Assembly (NCBI GenBank): GCA_025350085.1
Contig: JANXYI010000291.1
Location: 1-11,630, forward strand
Length of the DNA stretch: 11,630 nt
Reading direction: 5' to 3'
From: Deltaproteobacteria bacterium
GTDB taxonomy: Bacteria; Desulfobacterota; Desulfovibrionia; Desulfovibrionales; Desulfovibrionaceae
In this document: positions 1-11,630 of the stretch, in pieces
Layout of the letters: each line of letters begins with the position of its first letter
Numbering within the stretch: the stretch's first letter is position 1
Program-made: the position numbers and the translations under genes
The notes under the pieces: generated by a model
Database searches by the model: none
What the model was told of the DNA's origin: nothing
What the model saw: only the letters and a program-made list of their open reading frames with translations

Positions 1-380
1 ACGCCCTGCTTGCCGCGCAGGTTCGAGGGGCGGCTCGACAGGGCCGTGACGCGGAAGCCCGAGGCGAACTTGACCACGAAGGTGAGGATGTCCTTGTCCT
101 CGTCCTTCAGATATTCTTCCTGCACCTCCGTGGCCACCAGCTGGTACTGGCGCGCCCAATCCGCCGCGTCGCGGACGAACTCCTTGGCCATGTCCTGGTT
201 GTAGCCCACGTACCAGCAGTCCATGCCGCCCGCTCCGGACACGGATCCGGCGATGAGCGCGCAGTCGCTGGCCTCGGCCCAGGAGAAGCCCACGCGGCGG
301 CTCTTCTCGCCCACCTTGACGGGCGACTGGTCCGCCACCCAGGCTTGCTGGTAGGGCAGAAGGACGGCCGGGGTGCTCAT
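1..380 (-). CDS. Mu gp28-like terminase large subunit, N-terminal part
   Basis: This is the first 126 codons of the large terminase, the ATPase/nuclease motor that packages phage DNA into the prohead. The protein begins MSTPAVLLPYQQAWVADQSP and continues with EKSRRVGFSWAEA at about residues 25-37, which occupies the place of the Walker A region in Mu gp28-type terminases. Next comes a WYVGYNQDMAKEF segment, which I recognise as typical of this family. The ATG at 380-378 overlaps the stop of the upstream small-terminase gene as ATGA, which fixes the start. The Walker B and nuclease parts lie beyond the left edge. Identification rests on the N-terminal pattern and on the gp27-gp28 gene order. 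Confidence 0.88.
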   Translation of the reverse strand, partial: MSTPAVLLPYQQAWVADQSPVKVGEKSRRVGFSWAEASDCALIAGSVSGAGGMDCWYVGYNQDMAKEFVRDAADWARQYQLVATEVQEEYLKDEDKDILTFVVKFASGFRVTALSSRPSNLRGKQG

Positions 381-946
381 TTGATCCCCAGGATCTCGCG
401 GCGGATGGCGTCCGCCGACTCGGCGGAGAGCCCGCCCTTGCGGGCGGCGGTGACGGCGGTCTCTGCGGCGGCCTTGCGCGCGGCGGCCTCGGCCTGCTCG
501 CGGATCTTGCCCACCAGGTCGGCGTCAGCCTTGCTGGCGCGGGAAAGATGGTCCAGGGCCTTGGACAGGAGCATGGCGCCCATGGGCTCCAGGGTCACGC
601 CCTTGCCCTCGCCCCCCTCGCCGGTCTCGCCGTCCTCGTTCACCTTGAGCAGCAGATCCAGGAGCGCGCCGTGCATCAGCTCCACGTTGAGCCTGGTGGA
701 CTTGGATTCCGGGGCCGCGCCAAGCTTGGCGATGAGCGCGTCGGCCACCTCGCGGCTGCGGCGGATCTTCTCACCCACCTTGTCGAGGTGCTGCTTGTAG
801 CGGCCGATGGCCGAACGGGACACGGCCGCGCCCAGCTGGTTCAGGTGCGCGGTGATCTCGTCCAGCGTGCGGCCCTCGTCGAGGAGCGCGCCGATTTGTT
901 CGCGCAGTTCGGGCGGCAGGCGGCGAACGGTGGACTTGCGCGGCAT
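377..946 (-). CDS. Mu gp27-like protein (DUF3486), putative small terminase subunit
   Basis: A 189-residue protein starting MPRKSTVRRLPPELREQIGA. Residues about 10-55 read as a helix-turn-helix (LDEGRTLDEITAHLNQLG, then VSRSAIGRYKQHLDK), the pattern of the DUF3486/Mu gp27 family. Members of that family are thought to recognise phage DNA for packaging beside the gp28 motor. The rest is helical, with an acidic, Gly-rich loop (NEDGETGEGGEGKG) near residues 103-116 and an Ala-rich helix near the C-terminus. The start at 946 has a good ribosome binding site, GGAGG, about eight bases upstream, inside the end of the preceding gene. The stop overlaps the large-terminase start as ATGA, so the two are probably translationally coupled. 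Confidence 0.88.
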   Translation of the reverse strand: MPRKSTVRRLPPELREQIGALLDEGRTLDEITAHLNQLGAAVSRSAIGRYKQHLDKVGEKIRRSREVADALIAKLGAAPESKSTRLNVELMHGALLDLLLKVNEDGETGEGGEGKGVTLEPMGAMLLSKALDHLSRASKADADLVGKIREQAEAAARKAAAETAVTAARKGGLSAESADAIRREILGIK

Positions 947-949
947 GGT

Positions 950-1249
950 CTACGCCTCCGGCTCGGGACGCTTCACGCCGGGCGTCGTCACGCGGCCAGC
1001 GGCCACGTCCGCCCCGCGCGGGGTGAGCTTGCCCACTGTGACGCAAGAGGCGTGCTCCACCGTCACCAGACCCTGCTCGGCCAGCCAGGCCAAGTCCGTC
1101 TCGATCTTGTCGTGGCTCACCGTGTGGCCCATGGCCTCCAGGGAGGGGCGCAGCACGTAGACATTGAGCCGGTAGCCGGGATCCTCCGCCAGCAGGCGCA
1201 GAATGACCAGGCGGCGGTCCTCGTTCAACAGGCGTTCAAAACTGTTCAC
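950..1249 (-). CDS. Mu gp26-like small winged-helix protein
   Basis: A 99-residue protein starting MNSFERLLNEDRRLVILRLL. The order of segments (RRLVILRLLAEDPGYRLN, then DKIETDLAWLAEQGLVTVE, then a strand TVGKLTPRGADVAAGR) is that of an ArsR-like winged helix ending in the typical 'LTPRG.dvA.G' phrase. Such proteins sit at this point in Mu-like phages between the DUF2730 gene and gp27 and are usually annotated as gp26-like. The function is unknown; the fold suggests DNA binding. The ATG overlaps the upstream stop (ATGA at 1249-1246), and only three bases separate its stop from the next start. Confidence 0.8.
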   Translation of the reverse strand: MNSFERLLNEDRRLVILRLLAEDPGYRLNVYVLRPSLEAMGHTVSHDKIETDLAWLAEQGLVTVEHASCVTVGKLTPRGADVAAGRVTTPGVKRPEPEA

Positions 1250-1638
1250 GGTCTCCTCCCCAAATGATGCTCCATGAGCAGGTTCAGCTGGCGTTCAAAG
1301 CGCTTCATCAATTCCTGCTGTCCCTGCACCGTGGCGGCCAGCGCCTTGATGTCGCCGCGCACGCCCTCGTTCTCCTTGTCCACGATGGCCAAGGCGTCCT
1401 TGGTGGGTGTCTGGGCCACCTTGTCGTGCAGCTCCCCGGCGTTGGCCTCCTGCCTGGCCAGCCGCTCGCCCACTTCCTTGCGGCAGGCCTGGCGGCACTC
1501 CTCGCACTTCTGCGGGGTCACAAAGGCCTTGCGCAGGCTCCACAGCGCCCAAAGCACCAGGACTTGCACCAGGCCGACGAGGCACGTGAGCCCGAAAGCC
1601 CAGGCCTGGCTGGTGGCTGCAAATTCGGCAAGGGTCAC
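1246..1638 (-). CDS. DUF2730 family membrane protein (Mu gp25-like)
   Basis: A 130-residue protein with one membrane helix near residues 13-35 (WAFGLTCLVGLVQVLVLWALW), a cysteine cluster just after it (C45, C48 and C52, spaced CxxC then xxxC), and a long charged coiled-coil tail ending NLLMEHHLGRRP. This is the layout of the DUF2730 family, found in Mu-like phages between the lysis genes and gp26. Its role is not established. I chose the GTG start at 1638 because GGAGG stands about seven bases before it and because GTGA at 1638-1635 overlaps the stop of the spanin-like gene. A longer reading to 1698 is open but has no better signal. The cysteines could be oxidised or bind metal; this is speculation. 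Confidence 0.8.
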   Translation of the reverse strand: MTLAEFAATSQAWAFGLTCLVGLVQVLVLWALWSLRKAFVTPQKCEECRQACRKEVGERLARQEANAGELHDKVAQTPTKDALAIVDKENEGVRGDIKALAATVQGQQELMKRFERQLNLLMEHHLGRRP

Positions 1639-2231
1639 GGCGTGTCCTCCAGGAGCTTGAGCCGCGCCGCGCTCACGGCCACGGCTTCGCGGCACCACTG
1701 GCCCACGTCGCGGATGTGGGCCAACAGGTCTACGGGCTTCACGGATGCGTATCCGCGTACCCCGGCGTCAACGGGTCCGGCGGCTGTGGCGTTGCCTTCA
1801 GCTCCGCCGGTACCGGCGTCTTGATGATGATCGGCGGAGGACAGGCCGAGGGCCTCATTCCACAAGCCCACAAATTCAGGGCCATAGCTGCAATCAGCAG
1901 GAACAGTCGCGGCCGCATGGGCGATCCTCCGGGTTATGTCGGCGCGGGCCGTGACCAGCTCGCGCCGAGCGTTGTAGACTTCCATGGCCAGGGAGTTGGC
2001 GCGGGTGATGGCCGCCTGTTGCTTGCCTGCGGCCTCGCGGTAGGCGGCGGCCACGTTGGCCGCATACTCCGCCTGCAACTCATTGCGGGCGCTGGCCGAA
2101 CCGTGGCTCCAGCCCCACCAAACGCCGCCGAGGGTGCCCGCAAGGGCGAGCACCAGCAGGATGGGCGTCCAAGAAATACCGGTGAACCAGTTCAGCGCAG
2201 TGCCGCCGAAGGTTTTAAGCAGGCCCCACAT
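1635..2231 (-). CDS. Rz-like inner-membrane spanin
   Basis: A 198-residue protein. It has one membrane helix at about residues 20-41 (SWTPILLVLALAGTLGGVWWG), then an Ala-rich coiled coil (about 47-108) with alternating charged residues, and a C-terminal segment VDLLAHIRDVGQWCRE followed by AARLKLLE. That ending is common in phage Rz/LysB-like i-spanins, which span the periplasm and help fuse inner and outer membranes at lysis. The gene follows holin-like and lysozyme genes, which supports the role. Its ATG shares one base with the lysozyme stop (TGATG at 2233-2229). I found no convincing nested lipoprotein (o-spanin) reading inside it. Confidence 0.75.
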   Translation of the reverse strand: MWGLLKTFGGTALNWFTGISWTPILLVLALAGTLGGVWWGWSHGSASARNELQAEYAANVAAAYREAAGKQQAAITRANSLAMEVYNARRELVTARADITRRIAHAAATVPADCSYGPEFVGLWNEALGLSSADHHQDAGTGGAEGNATAAGPVDAGVRGYASVKPVDLLAHIRDVGQWCREAVAVSAARLKLLEDTP

Positions 2232-2989
2232 CAGCGCACCCCCTCACAGTTCACACCCGGCCCCCAGGCCAGGTACTTGGGCTGACGCCGCAGCAGGATC
2301 TGCCTCGGGTAGCCCGTGTTTTCGCGCTTGGCGGCGATGGACCGCCCGGCGTTGGCCAGCTCCACGTTGCCCCACCACCTGGCGGGGTCGAGGCCCTGGC
2401 GCGCGGCCAAGGCCTCGTCGCGGTACACCCAGCCGAGGCCGCCGTTGTAGGCCGCCAGAGCCTTGGCCATGGCGTCGCTCGGGCTGGCCGCCCGGATGCG
2501 CTTGAGGTTGGCCAGGTCGTAGGCCACCAGCGCGCGGATGGCCCAGCCGGGGTTGGTGGGGCTGGCCGGGCCGAGGTCCGGCCTGGTGCGGGCCATGTCC
2601 CGCGCCGTGCCGGGCATGAACTGGCCCAGGCCGCGCGCGCCCACGGGCGAAACCGCCTGCGGGTTCCAGCCGCTTTCCTGTTCGACTTGCGCCGCGAACA
2701 CGGCCACCGGGGCATCAAGACCGACCTCGCAACGAGCCGCACGGATGACCTCGGAGCGATACCGCTGGGCAGCGGCGGGGATAGGTTCAGCGTGGGCGCA
2801 CAAGGGCGAGAGGGCCACAACTGCGGCGGCGCAAGCGAGCACTCGGGCGAGGGCCTCCAGGAACCGGGCGGACAGGGCGAAACCGATGCCCAGAAAGAAC
2901 CCGTTGATGATGCTCCCCAGGACGCGCCCCGCACACAGCAAGGCATCGTCCGGCACTGCCGCGACGAGGCTGGCCAGCCACCTGCGCAT
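2231..2989 (-). CDS. SLT-type lytic transglycosylase, phage endolysin
   Basis: A 252-residue lysozyme-like enzyme that would cleave the glycan strands of peptidoglycan. The SLT/goose-lysozyme fold is shown by EQESGWNP at residues 103-110, with E105 as the likely catalytic acid, then GARGLGQFMPGTA at 117-129 and AYNGG at 180-184. The N-terminal 68 residues are unusual: two hydrophobic stretches (about 24-39 and 47-62) end in SPLCAHA followed by EP, which looks like a signal peptide or a SAR anchor. This suggests Sec export and possibly release independent of the holin. It follows the holin-like gene by 12 bases and overlaps the spanin start by one base. The ribosome binding site before the 2989 ATG is weak (GGGGCTGG), so a later start is possible. 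Confidence 0.88.
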   Translation of the reverse strand: MRRWLASLVAAVPDDALLCAGRVLGSIINGFFLGIGFALSARFLEALARVLACAAAVVALSPLCAHAEPIPAAAQRYRSEVIRAARCEVGLDAPVAVFAAQVEQESGWNPQAVSPVGARGLGQFMPGTARDMARTRPDLGPASPTNPGWAIRALVAYDLANLKRIRAASPSDAMAKALAAYNGGLGWVYRDEALAARQGLDPARWWGNVELANAGRSIAAKRENTGYPRQILLRRQPKYLAWGPGVNCEGVR

Positions 2990-3001
2990 GATCGCCAGCC
3001 C

Positions 3002-3343
3002 CTACAGCGCCAGGGCCATGGCCACGGCCCCGGCGAGCCCTGCCAGGCCCTGGAGCGCGATGGCGATCCAGAGCCGCACCTCGCAGCCGGGCTTGGCCTC
3101 GCGGTGGCCGCTCTCGTCCGGCGGCAGCAAGAGCTTGCTGGGCCGGTTGCAGTCGAGCAATTCGCGCATCACCAGGAAGAGCGTGACGGCTCCGGCGGAG
3201 ATGCAGACTAGCTTGTAGAGCAGCACCGCCACCTGGTGCGGGGCGATGACAGCCACGAGCAGAGCCAGGGCGATGGTGGCGAAGGTGGACCAGCCCATGC
3301 GCCTGGAGTCAATCCAGGCAAGAAGAGCCTTGATGCGATTCAT
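3002..3343 (-). CDS. Holin-like membrane protein
   Basis: A 113-residue protein with three likely membrane helices: about residues 18-36 (GWSTFATIALALLVAVIAP), 38-58 (VAVLLYKLVCISAGAVTLFLV) and 91-113. The first two are followed by a charged loop with a proline pair (LLLPPDESGHREAKPG). Size, topology, the 'VLLYKL' phrase and its position directly before an endolysin fit the putative phage holin proteins of Mu-like phages. Holins form the inner-membrane lesion that times lysis. The ATG at 3343 was chosen because GGAGG lies six bases before it (GGAGGCATCATG). The frame stays open upstream to 3484, but that part has no start signal and no hydrophobic character. The assignment rests on topology and context, not on a conserved motif. 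Confidence 0.75.
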   Translation of the reverse strand: MNRIKALLAWIDSRRMGWSTFATIALALLVAVIAPHQVAVLLYKLVCISAGAVTLFLVMRELLDCNRPSKLLLPPDESGHREAKPGCEVRLWIAIALQGLAGLAGAVAMALAL

Positions 3344-3603
3344 GATGCCTCCACGGTTGCCCCCCGGTGCCCCCTCCCGGCCCGGCGTAAAGCCGAGAGG
3401 AGGCTGGAGGAGTTGATGACGGCAGAACGCCGCATCCGTAGAGGACAGAGTACGTTGGCGGGGGCCGCGCTCTAACGCGGACAAGTGTCAGGGGGCGTTG
3501 GTCTTATGGCAGTATCTGGGATTCTGGCATGTGCGGGGCGGGGGGGTCAAGAGGGAGGGGCCAGGCGCAGACGGTCCAATGACGGCCATCTGCGCCTGGT
3601 CAT
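3344..3603 (-). other. Longest gene-free gap of the leftward operon, before the lysis genes
   Basis: About 260 bases between the Lys/Ala/Pro-repeat gene and the holin-like gene hold no convincing gene on either strand. The part next to the repeat gene carries a strong hairpin (listed separately). The remainder is C-rich on the minus strand and includes TTGACC at about 3548-3543. Because the lysis genes start right after it, this is the natural place for a late or lysis promoter, but I see no well-spaced -10 element and no recognised activator dyad. Confidence 0.35.
3561..3599 (-). terminator. Strong hairpin after the cargo genes, possible terminator without a U-tract
   Basis: Two perfect 11-base arms, CCAGGCGCAGA (3561-3571) and its complement (3589-3599), enclose 17 bases. 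Inside, GG at 3573-3574 can pair with CC at 3586-3587, so the stem can be longer with one mismatch. It starts four bases past the stop of the repeat gene. On the minus strand the stem is followed by a C-rich run rather than T residues, so it is not a classical intrinsic terminator in the operon direction. It may block transcripts with Rho, protect the 3' end of the cargo transcript, or separate cargo from lysis genes. Confidence 0.45.
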
Positions 3604-3777
3604 TCATTTCCGTTTCGGGCCGTCCGGAGCTGGCTTCGTGGGGATTACTGCACCTGTCACCGGAGCCTTTGCTGGGGCCTTTGCTGGGGCCTTTGCCGGG
3701 GTTTTTGCCGGGGTCTTTGCCGGACTCAGAGAGGTAGGCTTAACCGGTTGCGAGGGCGGAGGTGCTTTTTTACTCAT
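3604..3777 (-). CDS. Small basic Lys/Ala/Pro-repeat protein
   Basis: A 57-residue protein beginning MSKKAPPPSQPVKPTSLS, followed by a run of PAKT and PAKA units (about residues 19-39) and a basic tail ending PDGPKRK. The composition (mostly Ala, Lys and Pro, with only a few hydrophobic residues) recalls the tails of histone H1-like and other bacterial DNA-binding proteins; it should be disordered and positively charged. The ATG at 3777 is preceded by AAGGAG seven bases upstream, a good ribosome binding site. The gene follows the three-helix membrane protein by 23 bases and precedes the hairpin. I do not recognise a family, and the function is unknown. Binding of nucleic acid is a guess from charge alone. 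Confidence 0.6.
   Translation of the reverse strand: MSKKAPPPSQPVKPTSLSPAKTPAKTPAKAPAKAPAKAPVTGAVIPTKPAPDGPKRK
3662..3721 (+). repeat. Five 12-base tandem repeats inside the basic-protein gene
   Basis: Five consecutive units of the form GGGGCCTTTGCT (plus strand) run without gaps, differing at one to three bases each. They encode the PAKA/PAKT units on the minus strand. The 12-base period keeps the reading frame, so slippage would change protein length by four residues per unit without a frameshift. Confidence 0.85.
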
Positions 3778-3800
3778 CGGACGCTCCTTTTGTGTTACGG

Positions 3801-4322
3801 CTACCCTGGAAGCCTTGAAATAAAATTTATCGCAGCGAAAGCTCCAAAAGTGATCAATCCGGCCACGAAGCCCCACAAGGAAAACTGGTTCAGCAAGTCA
3901 ATTACCTCGTCTCGCTTCGAACTAATATTTCGAAAATCCTCATCGGCTTCGTATTTTTCATCTATTTGCTTGATGTAATCGTCATGGCAGCGAACGCCAG
4001 TATTGTATACCACGATTGTGGACACGAGCGAAAAAGCAAATAATGCCCACGAGAAAAGAAGTAGTGCAGGGTATTTCACCTCGCCTGCGGGAAGAATCTT
4101 TTCGATGTACGTAATAGAGAGGGCGAGAGAAGCGGACGACAGAGCCAGTACGTATTTGTCTTTCAGATTTGATTGGTCATTTTTACTGGCGATATATGCT
4201 TTGCGGGTATCGGAAAAGAGCTTCCAGCGACGCTCTTCCTTCAGCGAGGGCTCCTCTTCATCATCCTGAGCTGCCTTTGGTGTGTCATCGTCCTCAACCA
4301 TCACCGCCCCCACATTTTCCAT
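3801..4322 (-). CDS. Three-helix membrane protein of the cargo segment
   Basis: A protein of 173 residues from the ATG at 4322. It has an acidic N-terminus (MVEDDD..., DDEEEPS), a charged helix (about residues 27-56), two membrane helices at about 57-77 and 85-107, a charged loop (CHDDYIKQIDEKYEADEDF), and a third membrane helix at about 148-168 before the end FISRLPG. The N-terminal charged helix leading into paired membrane helices loosely recalls SLATT-type and related membrane effectors of bacterial conflict systems, but I cannot assign it to a family. The start is uncertain: no good ribosome binding site precedes 4322, the next ATG is 4301, and the frame is open to a TTG at 4364. It lies 68 bases after the ATPase stop, shares its AT-rich composition and is probably cotranscribed with it. 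Confidence 0.75.
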   Translation of the reverse strand: MENVGAVMVEDDDTPKAAQDDEEEPSLKEERRWKLFSDTRKAYIASKNDQSNLKDKYVLALSSASLALSITYIEKILPAGEVKYPALLLFSWALFAFSLVSTIVVYNTGVRCHDDYIKQIDEKYEADEDFRNISSKRDEVIDLLNQFSLWGFVAGLITFGAFAAINFISRLPG

Positions 4323-4390
4323 TATGGTGTTGCTATGGTACGTTAGGTTGGAGGTCAAGGCCAACTGTAACGGGCATCCATCAGACTTTG

Positions 4391-6145
4391 CTACTGCTCT
4401 ATCAAATGGCGGAGAACAGGAAGAACATCATCGCGTATTTGCATTGCTTCCAATCGGTTGATCAATTGAAAAGGATTATGCATCACGCCATTGAGAATTG
4501 GCATGTGTTCTACCATTCTCTTTTGACTTTGCTTGATGTATATGACCTTTGTTGCGCCCCATATGGCGCTGTTGTTGCTAAGGAAAGAATTCATTTCTTC
4601 CATTTTCGCGACGAAAAGATTTTTCTCTTCCTTGGTAAGCGGTCGCCTAATGCCTTTCTCACGCTGTGCAATACTGTGATTGTTCAATTCGTTAATGATA
4701 TTGTGACGTATACAGTATGTAATCACAGACGATTCATAAAGAATGCGAATCAAAGCCAATCCAGAGTAGGAGAGCGATGGGAGATCGAGCCGTTTAGCTT
4801 CATGAACGAGAGTGAGAAGCTTTTCGGGACAATATTTTTCATCGACATCGTTCGGCAAGATCGTTCGAAATTGATTATGGTCTTCTTTGATTGTTGGTTT
4901 TTGGGCCGGGCATGGTTTGCCGACAGGTTTAGAGACCGTACCTTGGCGTGCTGCGGTAGCAGGTTGTGGTTTGGGAGCGGCAGACGCTGGGGCAGGCTGC
5001 GCTTGCTGAACTGGAGCAGGGGGAATTGAAGAAAGCTGTCCTCCAGTTCTTTTCACCGTCTTTGCTCTATTCGCGAACGAACGCCATTTCTCGGTGAATT
5101 CCCGCATGGCACGAAGAGCAGACTGATAGGGCTTATTGTTGAGATCGACATCAGTCTTCGCTGTATTCCAAGGCAACATAGAGGGGTCATCACATTGAAA
5201 GTTGACCCTGCCGACAAACCCGTAGAATTCAGTATGGAATTTCGTGTCCCAACCCGTCTTTGAACTTCTATCGAATAGAACGATTGCTCTATCGTTGCAG
5301 AGGATTGACCACCCGAACTCATTGGTAAGCGAGCTGTTCCTCGTTAGATCATAATCTTGCTCTGCGGAAAAGCGATGCAGGATGTGTTGTCCGCATTCAA
5401 TGAAAACGGACACTCCGCAGTCAGCCTTGAAGAATTTATATTCAATCGGGAAAGGGCCGTTTTCACGGATCTGAATTTCGCCATTTCGAACGACCTCTCC
5501 ATTGACCTCGACCACGAGTCCGAGTCCGATAAAGCGTCCGTAGCGTTGTCCGATGGCCTTTCGAATTTCATCAATGAAGCCCGCGCTGGAAAACGATAAG
5601 GAGATTTCTTCCGTTGGGCTGCTTATCTCGATTGTGGTCCCAGCCTTACCACTTGTCGGGAATTCAAGAGCAGGTAGGTTCCAATTCTTGTCGTCTTTAA
5701 TATACTGATTTACATCCAGAAGAAGTTCGGCCCTTTCGGCTCCGGTGTCGGTCTTGAGGCTACTGATCTTGCCCAATTTAAAAAGGGCTCGGTTCAGGCC
5801 AACACCGAAAGCCCCGATTCCTAATATATGCTGCGAAGGCTGACCAAAGCGGAGCACAAGTGCTTTGAGTTGTGCCACGGGAATACCGCCGCAGTTGTCT
5901 TCGACGATCAATCCTGATCCGCTCAGAGTGAGCTTAATGGAAAAACCGGAGAATGGTCGAGTTGGTTCTTCTACGCCGTTCTCGCCGAGTCTTTTCAGAA
6001 TCGTTTCACGGGCTGCATCGACCGAATTGTCTATCAGGTCAAAGATGCATGCTTCGGTGCTGAGGTCCCGGGTGAGGCCGTCTACGACGAGTCTTTTATT
6101 GGGACGTGTATCGACTAAAAACTCTTTGCCCTCTCTTTTCGCCAC
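4391..6145 (-). CDS. GHKL (MORC/Hsp90-like) ATPase with unrecognised C-terminal domain
   Basis: A 584-residue protein. The N-terminal GHKL ATP-binding fold shows CIFDLIDNSVDAA at residues 33-45 (N40 is the Mg-binding Asn; D36 stands where many members have Glu), VEDNCGGIP at 81-89 and the lid motif GIGAFGVGLNRA at 109-120, with GTTIEI at 169-174. A transducer-like region follows to about 355. A Pro/Ala/Gln-rich linker spans about 368-420. The C-terminal helical domain (about 425-584) contains LALIRILYESSV and LNGVMHNPFQ. GHKL proteins of the MORC type occur beside restriction-modification genes in bacteria, which fits the methyltransferase 48 bases upstream. The GTG start at 6145 follows GGGGAGG by seven bases. 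The AT-rich composition differs from the phage backbone. A nucleic-acid clamp or switch role in a defence system is inference; no nuclease motif is visible. Confidence 0.88.
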   Translation of the reverse strand: MAKREGKEFLVDTRPNKRLVVDGLTRDLSTEACIFDLIDNSVDAARETILKRLGENGVEEPTRPFSGFSIKLTLSGSGLIVEDNCGGIPVAQLKALVLRFGQPSQHILGIGAFGVGLNRALFKLGKISSLKTDTGAERAELLLDVNQYIKDDKNWNLPALEFPTSGKAGTTIEISSPTEEISLSFSSAGFIDEIRKAIGQRYGRFIGLGLVVEVNGEVVRNGEIQIRENGPFPIEYKFFKADCGVSVFIECGQHILHRFSAEQDYDLTRNSSLTNEFGWSILCNDRAIVLFDRSSKTGWDTKFHTEFYGFVGRVNFQCDDPSMLPWNTAKTDVDLNNKPYQSALRAMREFTEKWRSFANRAKTVKRTGGQLSSIPPAPVQQAQPAPASAAPKPQPATAARQGTVSKPVGKPCPAQKPTIKEDHNQFRTILPNDVDEKYCPEKLLTLVHEAKRLDLPSLSYSGLALIRILYESSVITYCIRHNIINELNNHSIAQREKGIRRPLTKEEKNLFVAKMEEMNSFLSNNSAIWGATKVIYIKQSQKRMVEHMPILNGVMHNPFQLINRLEAMQIRDDVLPVLRHLIEQ

Positions 6146-6193
6146 GTCCGCACCTCCCCTAGGTTATGTATTGAACTCATACACGATAGACGA

Positions 6194-7330
6194 TTAGGCA
6201 GCAAGGGGTACTGCGAGTTTCGCGTTCAGATAATGCAATATCGCATATGAAACGAAAGGCGAAACGCTGTTCCCTATCATTCGGAAGCTGTGCCACTTGG
6301 TGGGATGAAAAACGAACCAGTCAGGGAAGCCCTGAATTCTGGCAGCCTCGCGGACGGTGATGACTCGGCCTTCTTCTGGGTGCAGAGGGCGAACTGCCTG
6401 GAAAGCCCCTTTGTCTCTCCCGGTCCCCGCTCTCAACGTCGGGCTGAGGCCGTTCCATGCCAGCTTTTGCGATCTGCTTATGGGTTCGCTCCTTCCGGGA
6501 GGTGTCTCGGCATAGCGCTTGGCGACTGCTACGCTATGCATGGTCGAGAACAAACCGGAAACGATCCCGGACTGAAGTTTCGTGATGGCTTCATCCCATC
6601 CTAGCCCGGCTGGCGGCGAGCATCTTAATCTAACTGCATATTCCGAAAGCCCGGCGACATCGACCTCGGGGTATTCGGACCACCCGAAATCGGAAGGCTT
6701 TTTCAGGTCCGGAATCGGAGAGGGAAGATCCGCGATGGCATCTCGAACCGTCGAACGTTCACCCGATGGCAACGTGGCAATGTCGCCGACGGAAACAGCA
6801 TCCATACGCTCCGGGTCGTAACCAATCACGACCACTCTGTGCCGGTTGGTGGCCGCTCCAAAGTCAGCAGCGTTCACGATGGTCGGGGAGCATATGTGGT
6901 AACGCTTTGCTACGAGTTCGATGCCACTTTGTAGAACGTTAACGTTCTCGGCATCGAGCAACCCTTCAACATTTTCCATTACGAAGAACTTCGGGCTCAA
7001 CAGATTTACATGCCGGAAGAAGTGATGAACCTGGCTGTTTCTTGGGTCATCCTTGCGCCTTTTGCCGATGCGGCTGAATCCTTGGCAAGGGGGACCGCCG
7101 ATCACTCCATCGGGGCGGTTGGTTCCGAGGAAATGCCGCCACGTTGCAATGTCGATGTCTGCAACGTTGCCTTGGATGGCTTTCGTCCGTGGGAAGTTGA
7201 GGCGGTAGGATGACTGAAGAACTGGATCGATGTCGATTGCGGCGAGGGAACGAAAGCCAGCCAACTCGGCCCCGAGTGTGAACCCACCGCAACCACAGTA
7301 CAAATCCACTATTGTGCACCCTGTCTTCAC
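6194..7330 (-). CDS. DNA (cytosine-5) methyltransferase
   Basis: A 378-residue m5C methyltransferase that would transfer methyl from S-adenosylmethionine to cytosine in a specific DNA site. Motifs in order: I, IVDLYCGCGGFTLGAELAGF (about residues 7-26); II, AIDIDP; IV, GGPPCQGFSRIG, with the catalytic nucleophile C82; VI, MENVEG (118-123); VIII, TNRHRVVVIG (161-170); IX, SPTLRAG (296-302) with ITVREAARIQGFP; X, MIGNSVSPF (351-359). The stretch between VIII and IX (about 175-295) is the target-recognition region, so the site cannot be read from the sequence. I chose the GTG at 7330, with GGAG five bases before it, giving a normal N-terminus. The frame is open to 7480, overlapping the Mor-like gene. 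No cognate endonuclease was recognised nearby, so it is an orphan protective enzyme or the modification arm of an unusual system with the ATPase. Confidence 0.93.
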   Translation of the reverse strand: MKTGCTIVDLYCGCGGFTLGAELAGFRSLAAIDIDPVLQSSYRLNFPRTKAIQGNVADIDIATWRHFLGTNRPDGVIGGPPCQGFSRIGKRRKDDPRNSQVHHFFRHVNLLSPKFFVMENVEGLLDAENVNVLQSGIELVAKRYHICSPTIVNAADFGAATNRHRVVVIGYDPERMDAVSVGDIATLPSGERSTVRDAIADLPSPIPDLKKPSDFGWSEYPEVDVAGLSEYAVRLRCSPPAGLGWDEAITKLQSGIVSGLFSTMHSVAVAKRYAETPPGRSEPISRSQKLAWNGLSPTLRAGTGRDKGAFQAVRPLHPEEGRVITVREAARIQGFPDWFVFHPTKWHSFRMIGNSVSPFVSYAILHYLNAKLAVPLAA

Positions 7331-7394
7331 TATGTCTCCACTCTCGTTAGGATTGCGACCAGTTAGCTTGAACGCCTCATTTTTACAAGAAGAA

Positions 7395-7826
7395 TCATAC
7401 CCCAGGCAGCTTGCACCACCCCTCGCTGCCGCCGCTCTCTTCGCCCTTGTGGCGGCGCACGGTGCGGGCGCTGACGCCAACCTGGCGCGCGGTCTGCTCG
7501 ACGCCTTGCCCGGCGTTCAATGCGCGTTCAATGGCCGCCCAAACGCTCGCCCGGTTGCCCGCGAAGGGGCCGAGGGGCACTTCCACCTCGCCGCTGCCCA
7601 GGGCCTTGGCGATGGCGCGCGCCGCCTCCTGGCCGGTGGCCTGCACAAGCCAGTGCTCCGCGTGCAGAGCCTCAGGTGCGGGGATGTAGGCCCGGCCACC
7701 TCCGCGCGTCTTGGCCAGCTGTATGGCCGCAGGCAGCCCGGCCGCACTCGCCACGGTGGCCAGGACGCCGGGCAGCTGCGCCAGGATATGCTCCGGCAGC
7801 GAGGTAGCGACGTCAGGGCGCGGCAT
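7395..7826 (-). CDS. Mor-like transcription activator
   Basis: A 143-residue protein. Residues 42-53 (GGGRAYIPAPEA) match the GGG.xYIP strand region of the Mor/C family, and residues about 107-126 (GQGVEQTARQVGVSARTVRR) form a C-terminal helix-turn-helix. Mor activates middle transcription in Mu and follows the GemA gene, as here. A second, similar stretch (AKALGSGEVEVPLGP, 74-88) looks like a duplicated strand module, so the protein is not a plain Mor. The ATG at 7826 has GGAGG seven bases upstream (GGAGGCGGAACATG) and overlaps the end of gemA by 14 bases. Its stop marks the border of the cargo. It could act as the only late activator, since no separate C gene was found before the lysis cassette. 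Plain helix-turn-helix phage protein is the cautious alternative. Confidence 0.7.
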   Translation of the reverse strand: MPRPDVATSLPEHILAQLPGVLATVASAAGLPAAIQLAKTRGGGRAYIPAPEALHAEHWLVQATGQEAARAIAKALGSGEVEVPLGPFAGNRASVWAAIERALNAGQGVEQTARQVGVSARTVRRHKGEESGGSEGWCKLPGV

Positions 7827-8325
7827 GTTCCGCCTCCGGCAGTTTTGGTGCGGTGCGCCGCTTACGCTTGCCGCCCTTCATCAATGCCACCATGACCCCG
7901 CGCAGCTGCTCGGCTGTGGCCCACTCCAGGCGGTCGACCCTGTACATGCGCTTCAGGATGGCCGCCGCGTAGTCCCAGGGCACATGCTTGCCCTGGTCCG
8001 TGCCCTTCTCGGACAGCAGCGCCTCGATCTTGGTCAGGAGCAAGGAACGGTCGTAGGGCTTGGCGTTGCCCTTGCCGTGCCCCCGGCCCAGGTTGGCTGG
8101 TGCGCCGTGCTTGTCGCCCTTTCGCTTGCGGGCGGTCTTGGCCTCCCATCCCAGCTTCTCCATGTGTGTGAGCAGCTTCTCCAGGCCCTTCGTGTCCAGA
8201 TCCTTGGAGGACTCCACGCCATGCCTGGCCAGGATCGCGCGGTACTCTCCCTCGCCCAGCTTGAGCTGGGCCTTGGCGATGTGCACCTTGGCCAGCAGGG
8301 ACTTGCGGGTGTCGAAGAACTGCAT
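7813..8325 (-). CDS. gemA: GemA family regulatory protein (Mu gp16, DUF1018)
   Basis: A 170-residue protein starting MQFFDTRKSLLAKVHIAKAQ. The opening 'LAKVHIAKAQLKLGEGEYRAILARHGV', the 'S..dL...GLEKLL.HMEKLGW' segment and the C-terminal half (LLTKIEALLSE, WDYAAAILKRMYRVDRLEW) follow the pattern of the GemA/gp16 family of Mu-like phages. In Mu this early protein affects host gene expression and DNA topology. A basic linker (about residues 64-92, with KTARKRKGDKHG) separates two helical halves, and the C-terminus is Lys/Arg-rich. The ATG at 8325 has CGGAGG six bases upstream. It overlaps the Mor-like start and begins 278 bases after the HU-type gene, with the tRNA-like gene between them on the other strand. 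Confidence 0.87.
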   Translation of the reverse strand: MQFFDTRKSLLAKVHIAKAQLKLGEGEYRAILARHGVESSKDLDTKGLEKLLTHMEKLGWEAKTARKRKGDKHGAPANLGRGHGKGNAKPYDRSLLLTKIEALLSEKGTDQGKHVPWDYAAAILKRMYRVDRLEWATAEQLRGVMVALMKGGKRKRRTAPKLPEAEHAAP

Positions 8326-8358
8326 CGGTGCCTCCGAAAAATAACTGGACCTTGAGCC

Positions 8359-8386
8359 TTGACCGCCTGTCAGCAGTTGTTATTTG
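8359..8386 (+). promoter_or_regulatory. Weak candidate promoter for the tRNA-like gene
   Basis: On the plus strand TTGACC (8359-8364) and TATTTG (8381-8386) are separated by 16 bases and lie 18 bases before the mature 5' end of the tRNA-like gene. The -35 element matches well and the -10 element poorly. On the minus strand the same stretch is the leader of gemA and carries a short direct repeat, TCAAGG, twice in 13 bases. Confidence 0.25.
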
Positions 8387-8403
8387 GTGTTGTCGAATGA
8401 TGT

Positions 8404-8476
8404 GCCCAGGTAGCTCAGTGGATAGAGCAAAGCCCTGCTAAGGCTTGGGTCGGGGGTTCGATTCCCCCCTTGGAAT
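8404..8476 (+). tRNA. tRNA-like gene, anticodon GCT (Ser codons) but class I shape
   Basis: A cloverleaf can be folded in full. D stem GCTC/GAGC (8413-8416, 8425-8428) has loop AGTGGATA. Anticodon stem AAGCC/GGCTT (8430-8434, 8442-8446) has loop CTGCTAA, so the anticodon is GCT. The variable loop GGGTC has five bases. The T stem is GGGGG/CCCCC with loop TTCGATT. T8, A14, G18-G19 and the 15-48 pair are all present. Two features are odd. Serine tRNAs have a long variable arm, and this one does not. The acceptor stem GCCCAGG/CTTGGAA pairs at only five of seven positions (one of them G-T), with the two outermost mismatched, and no CCA is encoded. It is antisense to the early operon and is followed by an intrinsic terminator. 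It may be a functional atypical tRNA, a tRNA mimic, or a decaying remnant. Confidence 0.75.
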
Positions 8477-8481
8477 ATTCT

Positions 8482-8515
8482 CCCCCCTGTGGCCTCTCGG
8501 TCACAGGGGGTTTTT
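8482..8515 (+). terminator. Rho-independent terminator after the tRNA-like gene
   Basis: Arms CCCCCTGTG (8483-8491) and CACAGGGGG (8502-8510) form nine base pairs around a ten-base loop whose outermost G-T can also pair, followed by TTTTTC at 8511. This works only on the plus strand: read the other way the stem is followed by GAGAATATT, with no T-run, so the leftward phage transcript should not stop here. It lies six bases after the tRNA-like gene. Confidence 0.85.
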
Positions 8516-8603
8516 CTTTCCGCTGGCTGCTCATCAGGCCCAGGCAACCACGCCTGGGCGACCGCGCCCGACCTTGGAGGGCCGGGGCGGTTTCGCATGT
8601 TTG

Positions 8604-8879
8604 TCAGGCCTTCAGGGCGTTCTTGAGCGCCTTGCCCACGGTGAACCGCACGGTGGTCTTGGCCGCGATCTCAAGGGGCTTGCCGGTGCGCGGGTTGCGC
8701 CCCGTGCGAGCCTTGCAGCTGTGGGCCTTCAGCTTGCCCAGGCTCGGCAGGGAGACCTCCCCGCCGCCCAGCAGCTCCGCCGCTGCCACGTCGCCCAGGC
8801 TGTTCACGATGCGCTCCACGTCCGACTTCTTGCTCTTGGTGGCCTCGGCCACCATGGAGATGAGTTCCGCCTTGGTCAT
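8604..8879 (-). CDS. HU-family DNA-binding protein
   Basis: A 91-residue HU/IHF-type protein starting MTKAELISMVAEATKSKKSD. The family signature is clear: SLPSLGKLKAHSCKARTGRNP at about residues 43-63, with the DNA-intercalating Pro in RNPRTGKP, then TVRFTVGKALKNAL at the C-terminus. The length is normal for HU. Such dimers bend DNA; in Mu, host HU and IHF assist transposition and repression, so a phage-borne copy could make the element less dependent on the host. The ATG at 8879 is preceded by AAGGAGCAAGGACC, giving a ribosome binding site. It follows the DUF3164 gene by 23 bases. A longer reading upstream in the same frame shadows the DUF3164 gene and is not used. Confidence 0.92.
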   Translation of the reverse strand: MTKAELISMVAEATKSKKSDVERIVNSLGDVAAAELLGGGEVSLPSLGKLKAHSCKARTGRNPRTGKPLEIAAKTTVRFTVGKALKNALKA

Positions 8880-8902
8880 GGTCCTTGCTCCTTGGGTTGA
8901 GG

Positions 8903-9499
8903 TTAAACCGCCGCCATATCCAGCGGGATGGCCGTGTAGGCCCCGCTCTCCTGGCGCTCGTAGATGCGGACATAGGACTTGGTGCCCGTGACCTGGATGC
9001 TGTCGCCAATGGCCTGCATGGCCCCCAGCCAGCGCTCGTCGGTGATGTCCAGGCGCCGCAGGCCCAGGATGCGGGTGGTGGATATCTTGCCCTCCTTGTC
9101 GACCTGGAAGGCCTGGTCGATGAGCGCCTGGATCTCGCTGCGCGTCCCCTGGGTCCAGTCCTTCAGACACTCGTCGATGAGGGCCTTGGCGGCCTGGAGG
9201 CGCTCGTCGAAGGTGATGTGCTCGGCCACCTGGCGGGCGATCTTGAACTTGCCGTCGTAGGACAGCAGGGTCACGTTGCCCTTGTCGCCGCCCACCTTGG
9301 CCCCGTACCGCTCGGCGGAGAGGGCCACGAACGCGCCCACGTCGGCCATCAGCTCGACCTTGAGCTTGCCCAGCAGCTCGTGCATGGCCTTGACCTTGGC
9401 CACCTTCTCCATGACCAGCTCGTGCCGGGCCTTGTCGATTTCCTGTACCTGGGCCAGCGGCACCTGGTGCCCCTGGGCGTTCTCCATGTAACCTTCCAT
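8903..9499 (-). CDS. DUF3164 family phage protein
   Basis: A 198-residue protein. It begins MEGYMENAQGHQVPLAQVQE, has a long charged helix (EIDKARHELVMEKVAKVKAMHELLGKLK), then AERYGAKVGGDKGNVTLLSYDGKFKI at about residues 63-88, and ends with TTRILGLRRLDITDERW and SYVRIYERQESGAYTAIPLD. This pattern is the DUF3164 family, common in the early region of Mu-like phages, where its function is unknown. The ATG at 9499 has AGGAGG nine bases upstream; a second ATG four codons later is possible. It sits between the 62-residue protein and the HU gene. In Mu the Gam end-protection protein is encoded in this part of the early region; I see no Gam homologue here. Confidence 0.85.
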   Translation of the reverse strand: MEGYMENAQGHQVPLAQVQEIDKARHELVMEKVAKVKAMHELLGKLKVELMADVGAFVALSAERYGAKVGGDKGNVTLLSYDGKFKIARQVAEHITFDERLQAAKALIDECLKDWTQGTRSEIQALIDQAFQVDKEGKISTTRILGLRRLDITDERWLGAMQAIGDSIQVTGTKSYVRIYERQESGAYTAIPLDMAAV

Positions 9500-9512
9500 G
9501 ATGCGCTTCCTC

Positions 9513-9701
9513 CTACTGTCTGTTGATGTTGGCGACGGGGATGGTGATGACGAGCACGGCCGACTCCAGGTGGCGTGCCGAATCCGAGGCGTCCTTCAGC
9601 TCGGCGCAGGCCACGCGCAGCAGCTCGTACACTTCCGGGTGCACCTGGCCGCCCAACCCGCGCAGGGTCTTGGTTACGCCGTCGATCTTCTCGTGGATCA
9701 T
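9513..9701 (-). CDS. Small early phage protein, function unknown
   Basis: A 62-residue protein starting MIHEKIDGVTKTLRGLGGQV and ending VITIPVANINRQ. It is mainly helical, with a central HPEVYELLRVACAELKDASD segment, and carries no motif I recognise. The start is well supported: AAGGAGG stands five bases before the ATG at 9701, and that ATG overlaps the upstream stop as ATGA (9701-9698). Thirteen bases separate it from the DUF3164 gene. It belongs to the early operon by position. Confidence 0.75.
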   Translation of the reverse strand: MIHEKIDGVTKTLRGLGGQVHPEVYELLRVACAELKDASDSARHLESAVLVITIPVANINRQ

Positions 9702-10093
9702 GATGCCTCCTTGGAGTTGATTCTGCTGTGGATGCAGCCGCTGCGGCAGGCGGTGTACAGCCGCACGCGCTGGGGGTTGGTGGCTGCCCAGGGCTGCCTC
9801 TGGATCTCCAGGCAGCGATCCGCCGCGATCTCGCCCGCTGCCGGGCAGTTGACCACGGCGGAGAGGTAGGCCCCGCGCACGGCCTGCTCGATGCGGACCA
9901 GCGGAGCCTTGTACTTGGCGGCCAGAACCTGATTCACCGCGCCCGCGCTGTAGCCGATGCGATCGGCCACCTGGCGCTGGCTGGTGCGATCGCATTCCTC
10001 GGCCAGGGTGGTGATCCAGTCCGGGCAGCCGCCCAGCTCGGCCCAGGCGGCGCGGGCGGTGTCCACGGCCTTCTTCTTGGCGGTCGGGCTCAT
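9698..10093 (-). CDS. Helix-turn-helix protein with a cysteine-bearing C-terminus
   Basis: A 131-residue protein. Residues about 38-62 (SQRQVADRIGYSAGAVNQVLAAKY) form a Cro/XRE-type helix-turn-helix. The C-terminal part (83-122) carries C83, C94, C116 and C120 with H122 in the pattern NCPAAGEI, ADRCLEIQ, NPQRVRLYTACRSGCIHS, which I recognise from small regulators in Mu-like early operons and which could bind a metal. It probably controls phage or host transcription, or acts near replication; the target is unknown. It overlaps both neighbours by four bases (ATGA at 10093-10090 and 9701-9698), so translation is coupled along the operon. Confidence 0.8.
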   Translation of the reverse strand: MSPTAKKKAVDTARAAWAELGGCPDWITTLAEECDRTSQRQVADRIGYSAGAVNQVLAAKYKAPLVRIEQAVRGAYLSAVVNCPAAGEIAADRCLEIQRQPWAATNPQRVRLYTACRSGCIHSRINSKEAS

Positions 10094-10668
10094 GCGTCGA
10101 TCTCCTCGTGCCAGGCGATGCGGCCCAGGTTGGGGTCAAAGACCACCTTGGCCCGCGTCACCATGGGCGACAGAGGACCGGTGTTTTTGGCCAGGCGGTA
10201 GACGGCCTTGGAGGTCGGCGTGGCGGGCTTCTGGACGGCCAGGTACCCGGCGTGCAGGAGGTGCTTGACGTAGCACCGCGCGTCCTCTTCGGAGACCCGC
10301 ACGTCCTCGGTGCTCGCGGTCACGGCGAGGTCCACGTAAGTGAACGTGCCGCCCATCTTCATGGCCCGCCACAGGTTCTCGCGGCAGCGGCCCATGAGAG
10401 ACGGGCTGCCGTCACGCTGGAGCTTCGGGGCCTCCATGCCCACGTCGCGCACCAGCTCGAACACGATCCGCGTGAAGCGCCCCCCGGAGCGGTCGGCCTT
10501 GAGAAAACCGCCAGCCAGCAGGCGCTGCACGTAGTCCCTCACCGTGTCGCGGTCCCAGCGGAACAGGTCCGCGTAGGTGAACCGGCGCATGGTGCGCATG
10601 ACTTCCCACATGGCCTGGCGGCCATAGGGCTTGCCGCTTGCGGCCAGCTCCACGGCTCCCTTGTTCAT
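10090..10668 (-). CDS. Double winged-helix phage protein
   Basis: A 192-residue protein built from two similar halves. The first (about residues 18-75) reads AMWEVMRTMRRFTYADLF, DTVRDYVQRLLAGGFLKADR, IVFELVRDVG. The second (about 99-165) reads NLWRAMKMGGTFTYVDLA, DARCYVKHLLHAGYLAVQK, AVYRLAKNTG. Each half looks like a winged helix: helix, 'FTY.DL', recognition helix, then a wing ending in a Y/F-x-L strand. The C-terminus (MVTRAKVVFDPNLGRIAWHE) lies outside the repeats. Two DNA-contacting modules in one chain suggest binding to a pseudo-symmetric or paired site, perhaps in transposition or early control; that is inference. The ATG overlaps the MuB-like stop as ATGA (10668-10665). I do not know a named family. 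Confidence 0.78.
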   Translation of the reverse strand: MNKGAVELAASGKPYGRQAMWEVMRTMRRFTYADLFRWDRDTVRDYVQRLLAGGFLKADRSGGRFTRIVFELVRDVGMEAPKLQRDGSPSLMGRCRENLWRAMKMGGTFTYVDLAVTASTEDVRVSEEDARCYVKHLLHAGYLAVQKPATPTSKAVYRLAKNTGPLSPMVTRAKVVFDPNLGRIAWHEEIDA

Positions 10669-11444
10669 GCGACCCTCCGCAGGGGCACTCCCGCCGGGTT
10701 CCCGGTGAAGATCTCGCCCTGGTACTCGGCCAGGCCGATCTCCTTCAGGCCGCCCGCCACCGCGAACTCGCGCACACGGTCCAGGTTCACGCAGATTCGC
10801 CGCACGCTGCCGCCGCTGGCCTCCAGCAGCCGGGCTTGCAGATCCAGCCCCACTGTGGCCGTGGGGCAGTACAGCTTGGCCAGCACGCGGGCGTCAGACT
10901 CACAGGCGGGCTGGGCGGCCTGCCAGTCGAGCATCCGGCCGTGCACGCGCTCGTAGCGCGTCAGGTTCTGCGGCAGGCCTTCCTCGCCGATGAGGATGAT
11001 GGCCGCCTGGCTTGATTCGTAGATGTCGCGCACCACCTCGATCATGCCCTTGACCAGCAGGTGGTCAGCCTCGTCGATGAAGAGCGGGCGGCGGGACAGC
11101 GAGAGCTGTTCGCCCACCTGGTCCATCATCTGCGGGATGGTGCCCGCCGGACGGATGCCCATCTCGGCCAGGATGCTGGCCAGCATGTGCTTGCGCGTCC
11201 ACACGCTCTTGATCTGGATGTGGTAGGCGCGGTGCTTGTTGGCCGCGAAGATGGCCGCGAAGGTCTTGCCCAGGCCGCTGCGGCCGTGGAAGGTGGCCAT
11301 GCCGGGCAGGCCATAGGGCCGCCCCATGACGCGCTCTACCAGCGCGGAAAACAGCACCACGTTGCGCAAGGGCGCGATGGTTCCCGCAGTCCCCGCGCCC
11401 TGTCCATTGGCCGGTCCGTTGACTTGTCCGCCGTGTTTCGTCAT
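10665..11444 (-). CDS. MuB-like AAA ATPase, transposition target protein
   Basis: A 259-residue ATPase. Walker A is GRSGLGKT at about residues 54-61, Walker B is PLFIDEADHLL at about 120-130, and IILIGEEGLPQNLTRYERVHGR (about 149-170) supplies sensor and arginine positions. This is the AAA family of MuB and related transposon ATPases. MuB forms ATP-dependent filaments on target DNA, delivers it to the transposase and gives target immunity. Position right after the transposase supports the call. It lacks a clear N-terminal helix-turn-helix: residues before about 25 are Gly/Asn/Gln-rich, and the chain is shorter than Mu MuB (312 residues). Two ATGs stand in tandem at 11447 and 11444; GGAG is six bases before the second, which I chose. 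A longer frame to 11495 has no start signal. Confidence 0.9.
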   Translation of the reverse strand: MTKHGGQVNGPANGQGAGTAGTIAPLRNVVLFSALVERVMGRPYGLPGMATFHGRSGLGKTFAAIFAANKHRAYHIQIKSVWTRKHMLASILAEMGIRPAGTIPQMMDQVGEQLSLSRRPLFIDEADHLLVKGMIEVVRDIYESSQAAIILIGEEGLPQNLTRYERVHGRMLDWQAAQPACESDARVLAKLYCPTATVGLDLQARLLEASGGSVRRICVNLDRVREFAVAGGLKEIGLAEYQGEIFTGNPAGVPLRRVA

Positions 11445-11516
11445 CATCGACTCCTCTCGTTTCAAGTTCCCCAAAGGCCCTGCCTGGCGCGCCAACGCCG
11501 GGCGGGGCCGCGCCGT

Positions 11517-11630
11517 TTACAGACCAGCGCCCGCCGCAGCTTGCGGCAGCCACAGATCGCCAAATTCCTCGTAGACATTGCGGCAGCCCAGGTATTCCGG
11601 GCTGCTCTGGTAGCCGTGCAGCCAGCGCAG
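11517..11630 (-). CDS. Mu-like transposase (MuA homologue), C-terminal tail
   Basis: The last 37 codons of a gene cut by the right edge. They read LRWLHGYQSSPEYLG, then NVYEEFGDLWLPQ, and end AAAGAGL before TAA at 11519-11517. No catalytic DDE residue falls in this piece. The call rests on position: in Mu-like elements the gene directly before the MuB-type ATPase is the transposase A gene, and the tail is a plausible end for it. Its stop is 72 bases before the ATPase start. That gap is GC-rich, includes the palindrome GGCGCGCC and holds the AGGAG for the ATPase. Another early protein is possible but less likely. Confidence 0.7.
   Translation of the reverse strand: MRWLHGYQSSPEYLGCRNVYEEFGDLWLPQAAAGAGL

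Follow-up and report, generated by a model that had tools for sequence, protein, structure and literature searches.

A stretch of 11,630 nucleotides from a Deltaproteobacteria bacterium (contig JANXYI010000291.1 of assembly GCA_025350085.1; here called the window) raises the question of whether a block of adjacent prophage genes constitutes a defense system and, if so, which of the genes belong to it. The window belongs to a Mu-like prophage, whose marker genes we identified by Pfam and PHROG family searches. A first-pass annotation of the window had proposed that a DNA methyltransferase (MTase), a MORC-like GHKL ATPase and a three-helix membrane protein, located between 3604 and 7394, form a phage-borne defense or exclusion module. 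All three are indeed adjacent minus-strand genes, with a Mor-like activator on one side and a holin on the other. We consider the chances about even that the MTase and the ATPase form a two-gene, prophage-borne defense that acts by restriction plus an abortive-infection-like response, with the membrane protein and a 57-aa open reading frame (ORF) as separate cargo. The parts of this reading that our data show are the anatomy of the genes, the co-occurrence of the pair, the MORC fold and motif, the HEPN-like model of the ATPase tail, the similarity of that tail to PD-lambda-5_A, and the location of the pair in a slot of the phage genome.

The MTase matches Pfam DNA_methylase (E = 2.1e-57) and PADLOC MTase_II (E = 8.8e-96), and the key motifs that had been attributed to it (PPCQG, ENV and NRHR) are all found. 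Its likely start is the GTG at 7330, which is preceded by GGAG, and a start at 7394 is disfavored. To compile relatives of the MTase-ATPase pair, we combined 5 viral and 12 genome loci obtained from scans, removed one duplicate contig, and added L065 and L036, giving 18 independent relatives. Loci L009, L056, L057, L058, L064 and L066, which duplicate L018, L020, L016, L015, L018 and L036, respectively, were left out before counting, and short GHKL proteins without the tail (L001 to L003, L059 to L063 and L067 to L069) were excluded. We retained L022: its tail is not alignable to that of the window ATPase (match 9-440), yet it matches PD-lambda-5_A with E = 1.5e-14. The scan of viral contigs found no relative with the ATPase sequence alone and five with an alignment; a DNA-level search of phage records gave no match.

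A C5 methyltransferase gene neighbors the ATPase gene in all 18 relatives. In 16 of them it lies directly upstream on the same strand, −4 to 46 bp from the ATPase gene; the exceptions are L011, in which the MTase (41% identical) is 332 bp away, and L022, in which it is convergent and downstream. The MTase and the ATPase are a conserved unit, and this part of the module idea stands. Among the excluded loci, five of the eight in L059 to L063 and L067 to L069 also show MTase sequence within about 1.5 kb. In the filamentous phage PfAC20, one block (L001:268-3711) combines a short GHKL ATPase with a Methyltransf_35 protein and a C5 methyltransferase, and a DISARM-annotated plasmid locus (L003:1832-12370) has a short GHKL ATPase by an MmeI-annotated enzyme and a methyltransferase.

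The MTase counterpart in phage locus L006 is 79% identical. Between the window and L006, the proportions of nonsynonymous and synonymous differences (pN/pS) are 0.127/0.687 for the MTase and 0.253/0.846 for the ATPase. Synonymous sites are saturated or nearly so, and the values indicate purifying selection on both genes. The pair is rare and seems mobile. For a Paraburkholderia record, 3 of 349 genomes of its family have a tailed, full-length ATPase, and for a Pseudomonas record, 3 of 298 genomes of its genus do (the center is included in each count); 98 relatives of the host genome yielded a single ATPase match, of 39 residues (E = 9.1e-4). S24-type repressor genes adjoin the pair in L007 and L018, as in other prophages. 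Of 17 scanned loci carrying pair relatives, L006 alone matches the Mor-like gene, so the pair has no fixed link with Mu-like phages.

The MORC-type ATPase and its HEPN-like tail

With a start at GTG 6145, preceded by AGGGGAGG, the ATPase gene lies 48 bp from the MTase gene, the spacing given in the first-pass annotation. We found 341 homologs of the ATPase at E <= 0.001 among 7993 candidates scored; among the best 120 of these 341, the closest is labeled Desulfovibrio sp. (75% identity), which suggests a Desulfovibrio-like host. The ATPase matches HATPase_c_3 (E = 5e-7, 30.3 bits against a cutoff of 25), and an S5 domain follows the GHKL domain. Its GHKL ATP-binding motifs are present: Asp83 and four motif glycines are identical in all 22 aligned sequences, and N-box residue 36 is Asp in all 22. 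In other GHKL proteins, the N-box position is Glu. The GhXhhpXXRhl motif, a marker of MORC versus paraMORC proteins, occurs near residue 278 in 22 of 22 aligned sequences. Judged by its modeled fold and this defining motif, the N-terminus is of the MORC type, in agreement with what had been proposed.

For the 167-residue tail, a structure model gives a HEPN-like fold with the helical arrangement of HEPN domains. A Pfam search of the window tail matched no family, and the Rx4-6H catalytic motif of HEPN RNases was not found in it. We scored 64 aligned tails for an Arg five to seven residues before the invariant His; the motif is likewise missing in 59, and in the remaining five the Arg is at −6. 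His556, Arg467, Glu471 and Arg571 are invariant across the aligned tails.

The tail also matches PADLOC PD-Lambda-5_A models (E = 5e-6 for the window, residues 339-580 only), and PD-Lambda-5_A is the most frequent PADLOC model in 20 of 22 ATPase homologs (E <= 0.01). The comparisons with published systems made here draw on parts of the cited papers. PD-lambda-5, a known defense system, was derived from experimental selection, and a logic of restriction-modification (R-M) plus abortive infection was proposed for it (Vassallo et al. 2022, PMC9519451). Like the window pair, it combines a DNA methyltransferase with a protein that has a similar tail. In locus L035 (5098-7491), the A protein (E = 4.2e-62) stands beside the B protein (E = 7.4e-108), a D12 adenine methyltransferase. 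By contrast, the window ATPase does not match the A protein over its whole length, and its partner is a C5 methyltransferase, not a homolog of B; the N-terminus is GHKL in the window and looks ParB-like, by eye, in the L035 A protein, whose tail appears to be of the same kind as that of the MORC ATPase. A direct profile comparison of the ATPase tail with the L035 A protein gave a weak match (probability 5%, E = 0.007, 37 columns).

Other published systems also resemble the pair, among them kinds predicted in 2008 and 2013. Prokaryotic MORC/paraMORC loci were described as nuclease-containing R-M systems (Iyer, Abhiman and Aravind 2008, PMC2292703); they share with the window and its relatives a MORC GHKL plus S5 ATPase with the defining motif, a cytosine methylase and Vsr neighbors, and a minority were described without helicase genes. 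The consulted parts of that paper describe no HEPN-type tail, whereas the window has a HEPN-like tail and a two-gene conserved core. In R-M loci, paraMORC ATPases with a fused Ymh-type HEPN domain were found, and a PrrC/RloC-like role was proposed (Anantharaman et al. 2013, PMC3710099). These proteins, too, are GHKL ATPases with a C-terminal HEPN in an R-M neighborhood, but the window tail has neither a Pfam family nor Rx4-6H, and the ATPase motif is that of MORC, not paraMORC. The anticodon nucleases PrrC and RloC (PMC3710099) are, like the proposed pair, ATPase-HEPN proteins that act as a suicidal backup to R-M; they differ in having an unrelated ABC-type ATPase and a catalytic HEPN nuclease. 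Finally, a C5 methylase was reported upstream of a HEF_HK paraMORC-like ATPase that is accompanied by Response_reg_2 and in many cases by Vsr (Bellieny-Rabelo et al. 2021, PMC8011034). That system and the window with its relatives have in common a C5 methylase gene preceding one for a HATPase_c_3 protein and a nearby Vsr, and Desulfovibrio is among its genera; however, HEF_HK is not among the Pfam matches of the window tail or of the 16 tails searched, and we noticed no response-regulator-like partner.

Given the Ymh-paraMORC and paraMORC-like plus Vsr descriptions, as far as the consulted parts of PMC3710099 and PMC8011034 extend, the pair is distinct from earlier predictions in its combination of a MORC assignment by motif, a HEPN-like tail outside Pfam families and a 5-methylcytosine (m5C) methyltransferase. 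Our searches of open-licence literature found no experimental study of this pair among the papers listed. We also considered WonAB of V. cholerae, as the paper on it mentions GHKL, and rejected the likeness, since in the text available WonA is an ABC ATPase and the GHKL protein there is VcSduA, of the Shedu type.

Vsr neighbors and the place of a nuclease

The usual third gene of the pair is Vsr, found near it in 9 of the 18 relatives (L006, L012, L013, L016, L017, L019, L020, L021 and L036; each a Pfam Vsr match, with the Vsr profile made from seven of the nine loci that it detects), and not the membrane protein, of which profile and tblastn searches found a relative beside 0 of 18 within the flanks examined. 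Because the 3′ flank is <1.5 kb in L008, L010, L011, L012 and L065, a Vsr or membrane protein gene could go undetected in these five. In the window we saw no Vsr remnant (best tblastn E = 0.016, outside the slot), and none was found in the source genome, which is 73.8% complete. In one genome of the Pseudomonas group, genes for the MTase, the tailed ATPase, Bro-N, HNH and Vsr follow one another (L036:3565-8729). No helicase appeared among the neighbors of the pair that were scanned for families, which were a selection of all neighbors.

These data bear on the two main rivals of the defense-pair reading, namely that a nuclease such as Vsr is recruited to restrict DNA, and that the pair maintains m5C. 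In the first, the MORC ATPase would load or recruit a nuclease, whether Vsr-like, HNH or from the host, at unmethylated sites, and the tail would be a mere binding module. The MTase supplies the DNA methyltransferase that a type II R-M system requires. A cutting system would fit the Vsr genes of half of the relatives, L006 included, the HNH and Bro-N genes of L036, the R-M loci with nucleases described in the parts of PMC2292703 consulted, and the absence of Rx4-6H from the window tail. However, no Vsr was found in the window or in its 73.8%-complete genome, and a Pfam search of the MTase and the ATPase found no nuclease domain in either. We regard DNA cutting as a doubtful explanation. The first-pass annotation had noted no visible nuclease, which calls for correction: the tail is HEPN-like, although it lacks the usual catalytic motif, and a Vsr nuclease gene accompanies the pair in 9 of 18 relatives, phage locus L006 among them.

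In the second rival, the pair would not be a defense at all: the MTase would shield phage DNA from host restriction, and a MutL-like MORC together with Vsr would repair deaminated m5C. Vsr adjoins the pair in relatives, and a MutL-Vsr interaction in E. coli is noted in the consulted part of PMC2292703. This explanation gives no role to the PD-lambda-5_A-like tail, and no Vsr was seen in the window and in 9 of 18 relatives, though five relatives have <1.5 kb of 3′ flank. We consider upkeep unlikely.

The variable cargo slot and the membrane protein

Table 1. Features of the window around the methyltransferase-ATPase pair
Feature	Coordinates	Strand	Details
Holin	3002-3343	−	Holin_2-3 E = 9e-8 on longer ORF 3002-3484; phrog_1528
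Conserved stretch, cargo to holin	3347-3557	none	Nucleotide alignment to related phage loci
Variable cargo slot of Mu-like phage	3558-7395 (about)	none	Limits of nucleotide homology
Pro/Ala/Lys-rich ORF	3604-3777	−	57 aa; inside the 3604-7394 interval
Three-helix membrane protein	3801-4301	−	166 aa
MORC-type GHKL ATPase with HEPN-like C-terminal domain (modeled)	4391-6145	−	584 aa
HEPN-like C-terminal domain of ATPase (modeled)	4394-4894	−	Residues 418-584
GHKL + S5 ATPase module	5033-6106	−	ATPase residues 14-371
m5C DNA methyltransferase	6194-7330	−	378 aa, GTG start
Mor-like late transcription activator	7395-7826	−	phrog_836 E = 2.3e-19

Nucleotide alignment of the window with related phage loci places the minus-strand block of MTase, ATPase, membrane protein and 57-aa ORF, which lies between the Mor-like gene and the holin, in a variable cargo slot (Table 1). 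Homology ends at 7397 (L040), 7399 (L054), 7405 (L038) and 7405 (L041), and restarts at 3557, 3558, 3555 and 3494, respectively. L006 was placed in the comparison through its Mor-like and SLT matches, and its nucleotide homology to the window covers 5068-8059; L037 ends at the slot, so its content is not readable there. Six phage loci have six different slot contents, with the pair common to the window and L006. The L040 slot (L026, and L027 from G002 contig 9, have the same proteins) holds a 349-aa gene together with a membrane protein that is 47% identical to that of the window; L054 (same proteins in L039) holds 322-aa and 488-aa genes; L038 holds genes of 316 aa and 177 aa, the latter with four hydrophobic segments; L041 holds 180-aa, 387-aa and 296-aa genes, the last of which is AbiTii (L041:11273-12163; Pfam E = 1.2e-41, PADLOC E = 3.7e-44); and L006 holds MTase, ATPase and Vsr, then a DUF3800 ORF that overlaps the Vsr end. 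The gene pairs at L040:8673-11289, L038:1374-2820 and L054:1532-4006 (scanned as L039) have no Pfam match above cutoff and no PADLOC match, and are candidate defense pairs.

The MTase does not stand alone at this position in Mu-like relatives: one of five readable slots (L006) has both MTase and ATPase, and the other four (L038, L040, L041 and L054) have neither; a tblastn search of the stretch examined (E <= 1e-3) detected neither of these genes nor Vsr in the four. The defense role that had been suggested fits these data, because AbiTii occupies the slot of one related phage and the ATPase tail matches PD-lambda-5_A. The same comparison bears on epigenetic control of the prophage, in which methylation and MORC compaction would silence or time phage genes. 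The pair is located beside the late activator, and eukaryotic MORC proteins compact DNA, according to the literature consulted in part; against this, four related phages without the pair fill the same slot with other cargo, and the pair lacks a tie to Mu-like phages, with a Mor-like match in only L006 of 17 loci. We find such control quite improbable.

The membrane protein has three hydrophobic segments of 19 residues each (mean hydropathy 1.35 to 2.32). The 68-base spacing first given between it and the ATPase gene is correct from ATG 4322, but the best start is ATG 4301, which matches the start of homolog P0122. A profile search that scored 7997 candidates defined a family of 38 proteins; a search of annotated phages and plasmids gave no match. 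Family members have other partners: the 349-aa gene in the same phage slot (L040/L027) and a YaaC protein (L028), with no clear partner in L079. At L077:1094-5992, a relative and a DUF2188 (PDC-S16) gene are side by side, with Gabija GajA/GajB genes adjoining, and at L078:4449-6090, a TIR-domain gene is followed by a distant relative. None of these loci (L040/L027, L028 and L077 to L079) has an MTase or ATPase in the stretch examined (tblastn).

Inclusion of the membrane protein in the module is therefore the part of the first-pass proposal that fails, and we rejected the three-gene module on its co-occurrence of 0 of 18 within the flanks examined. That the protein serves as the effector of the pair would agree with the adjacency and similar AT-richness of the genes in the window, and with the distant relatives beside TIR and Gabija genes, but given that the protein was found beside the pair in none of the 18 relatives and that its family has a different partner in the same phage slot, it is very improbable. 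Nothing except adjacency in the window ties the membrane protein to the pair. It is probably separate cargo, and may be a defense or exclusion effector of its own.

The 57-aa ORF, with AAAGGAG ahead of its ATG, we read as separate cargo in the slot, like the membrane protein. Pro-Ala-Lys units are repeated in it (3664-3720, by eye). It is possible that the ORF is a detached tail of the membrane protein: a Pro/Lys-rich tail is fused onto some membrane protein homologs, and a local alignment with the L040 tail scored 55, equaled by 3 of 500 shuffles. The ORF and the membrane protein are in different frames. A profile match was dropped as support for this origin because it runs in another frame.

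The last two genes of the proposed module had been called AT-rich, which their G+C contents confirm (ATPase 47.7% and membrane protein 46.7%, with 55.5% for the MTase and 68% for 1-3000 plus 7396-11630). The phage genes identified in the window are an AAA ATPase (presumably MuB-like, judged by position), an HU-family protein, GemA, the Mor-like activator, the holin, an SLT endolysin, an Rz-like spanin and Gp27. Pfam Mor scores 21.8 bits on the activator gene, under the family cutoff of 24.9. The conserved stretch of about 210 bp just upstream of the holin is about 80% identical in L040 and L054 and aligned in part in L041 and L038; it is perhaps a lysis promoter region. On another contig (G003 contig 127, L055), near other cargo-like ORFs, there is a Mor-like gene copy interrupted by two stops within the match.

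Proposed mechanism and its meaning

For the two-gene defense, we infer that methylation serves as the self mark, the ATPase as the sensor and the tail as the effector. The MTase would mark a cytosine site in the DNA of the lysogen, and the MORC ATPase, an ATP-driven clamp of GHKL and S5 domains, would survey DNA or its complexes. On unmarked DNA, such as that of an invading phage, the clamp would close and release or activate the HEPN-like tail, which would then halt infection via RNA or cell physiology. A bolder version is that a bacterial MORC reads cytosine methylation and traps unmarked DNA topologically, while the infection is silenced or aborted through the non-canonical HEPN-like tail, with no cutting of DNA; we hold this to be a speculative proposal with a small chance of being correct.

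If that version is true, a methylation-reading MORC would give prokaryotes a phage-borne counterpart of the link between MORC proteins and DNA methylation in eukaryotic silencing. The pair also suggests a logic common to PD-lambda-5 and the MORC pair, in which a methyltransferase accompanies a protein whose sensor domain bears a tail of one and the same kind. Cooperation between prokaryotic MORC proteins and DNA methylases has been predicted since 2008, and the pair is a very small unit of this kind, found in phages, in which a single methyltransferase is matched with a single MORC that has an effector-like tail; two genes suffice to test it in a laboratory strain.
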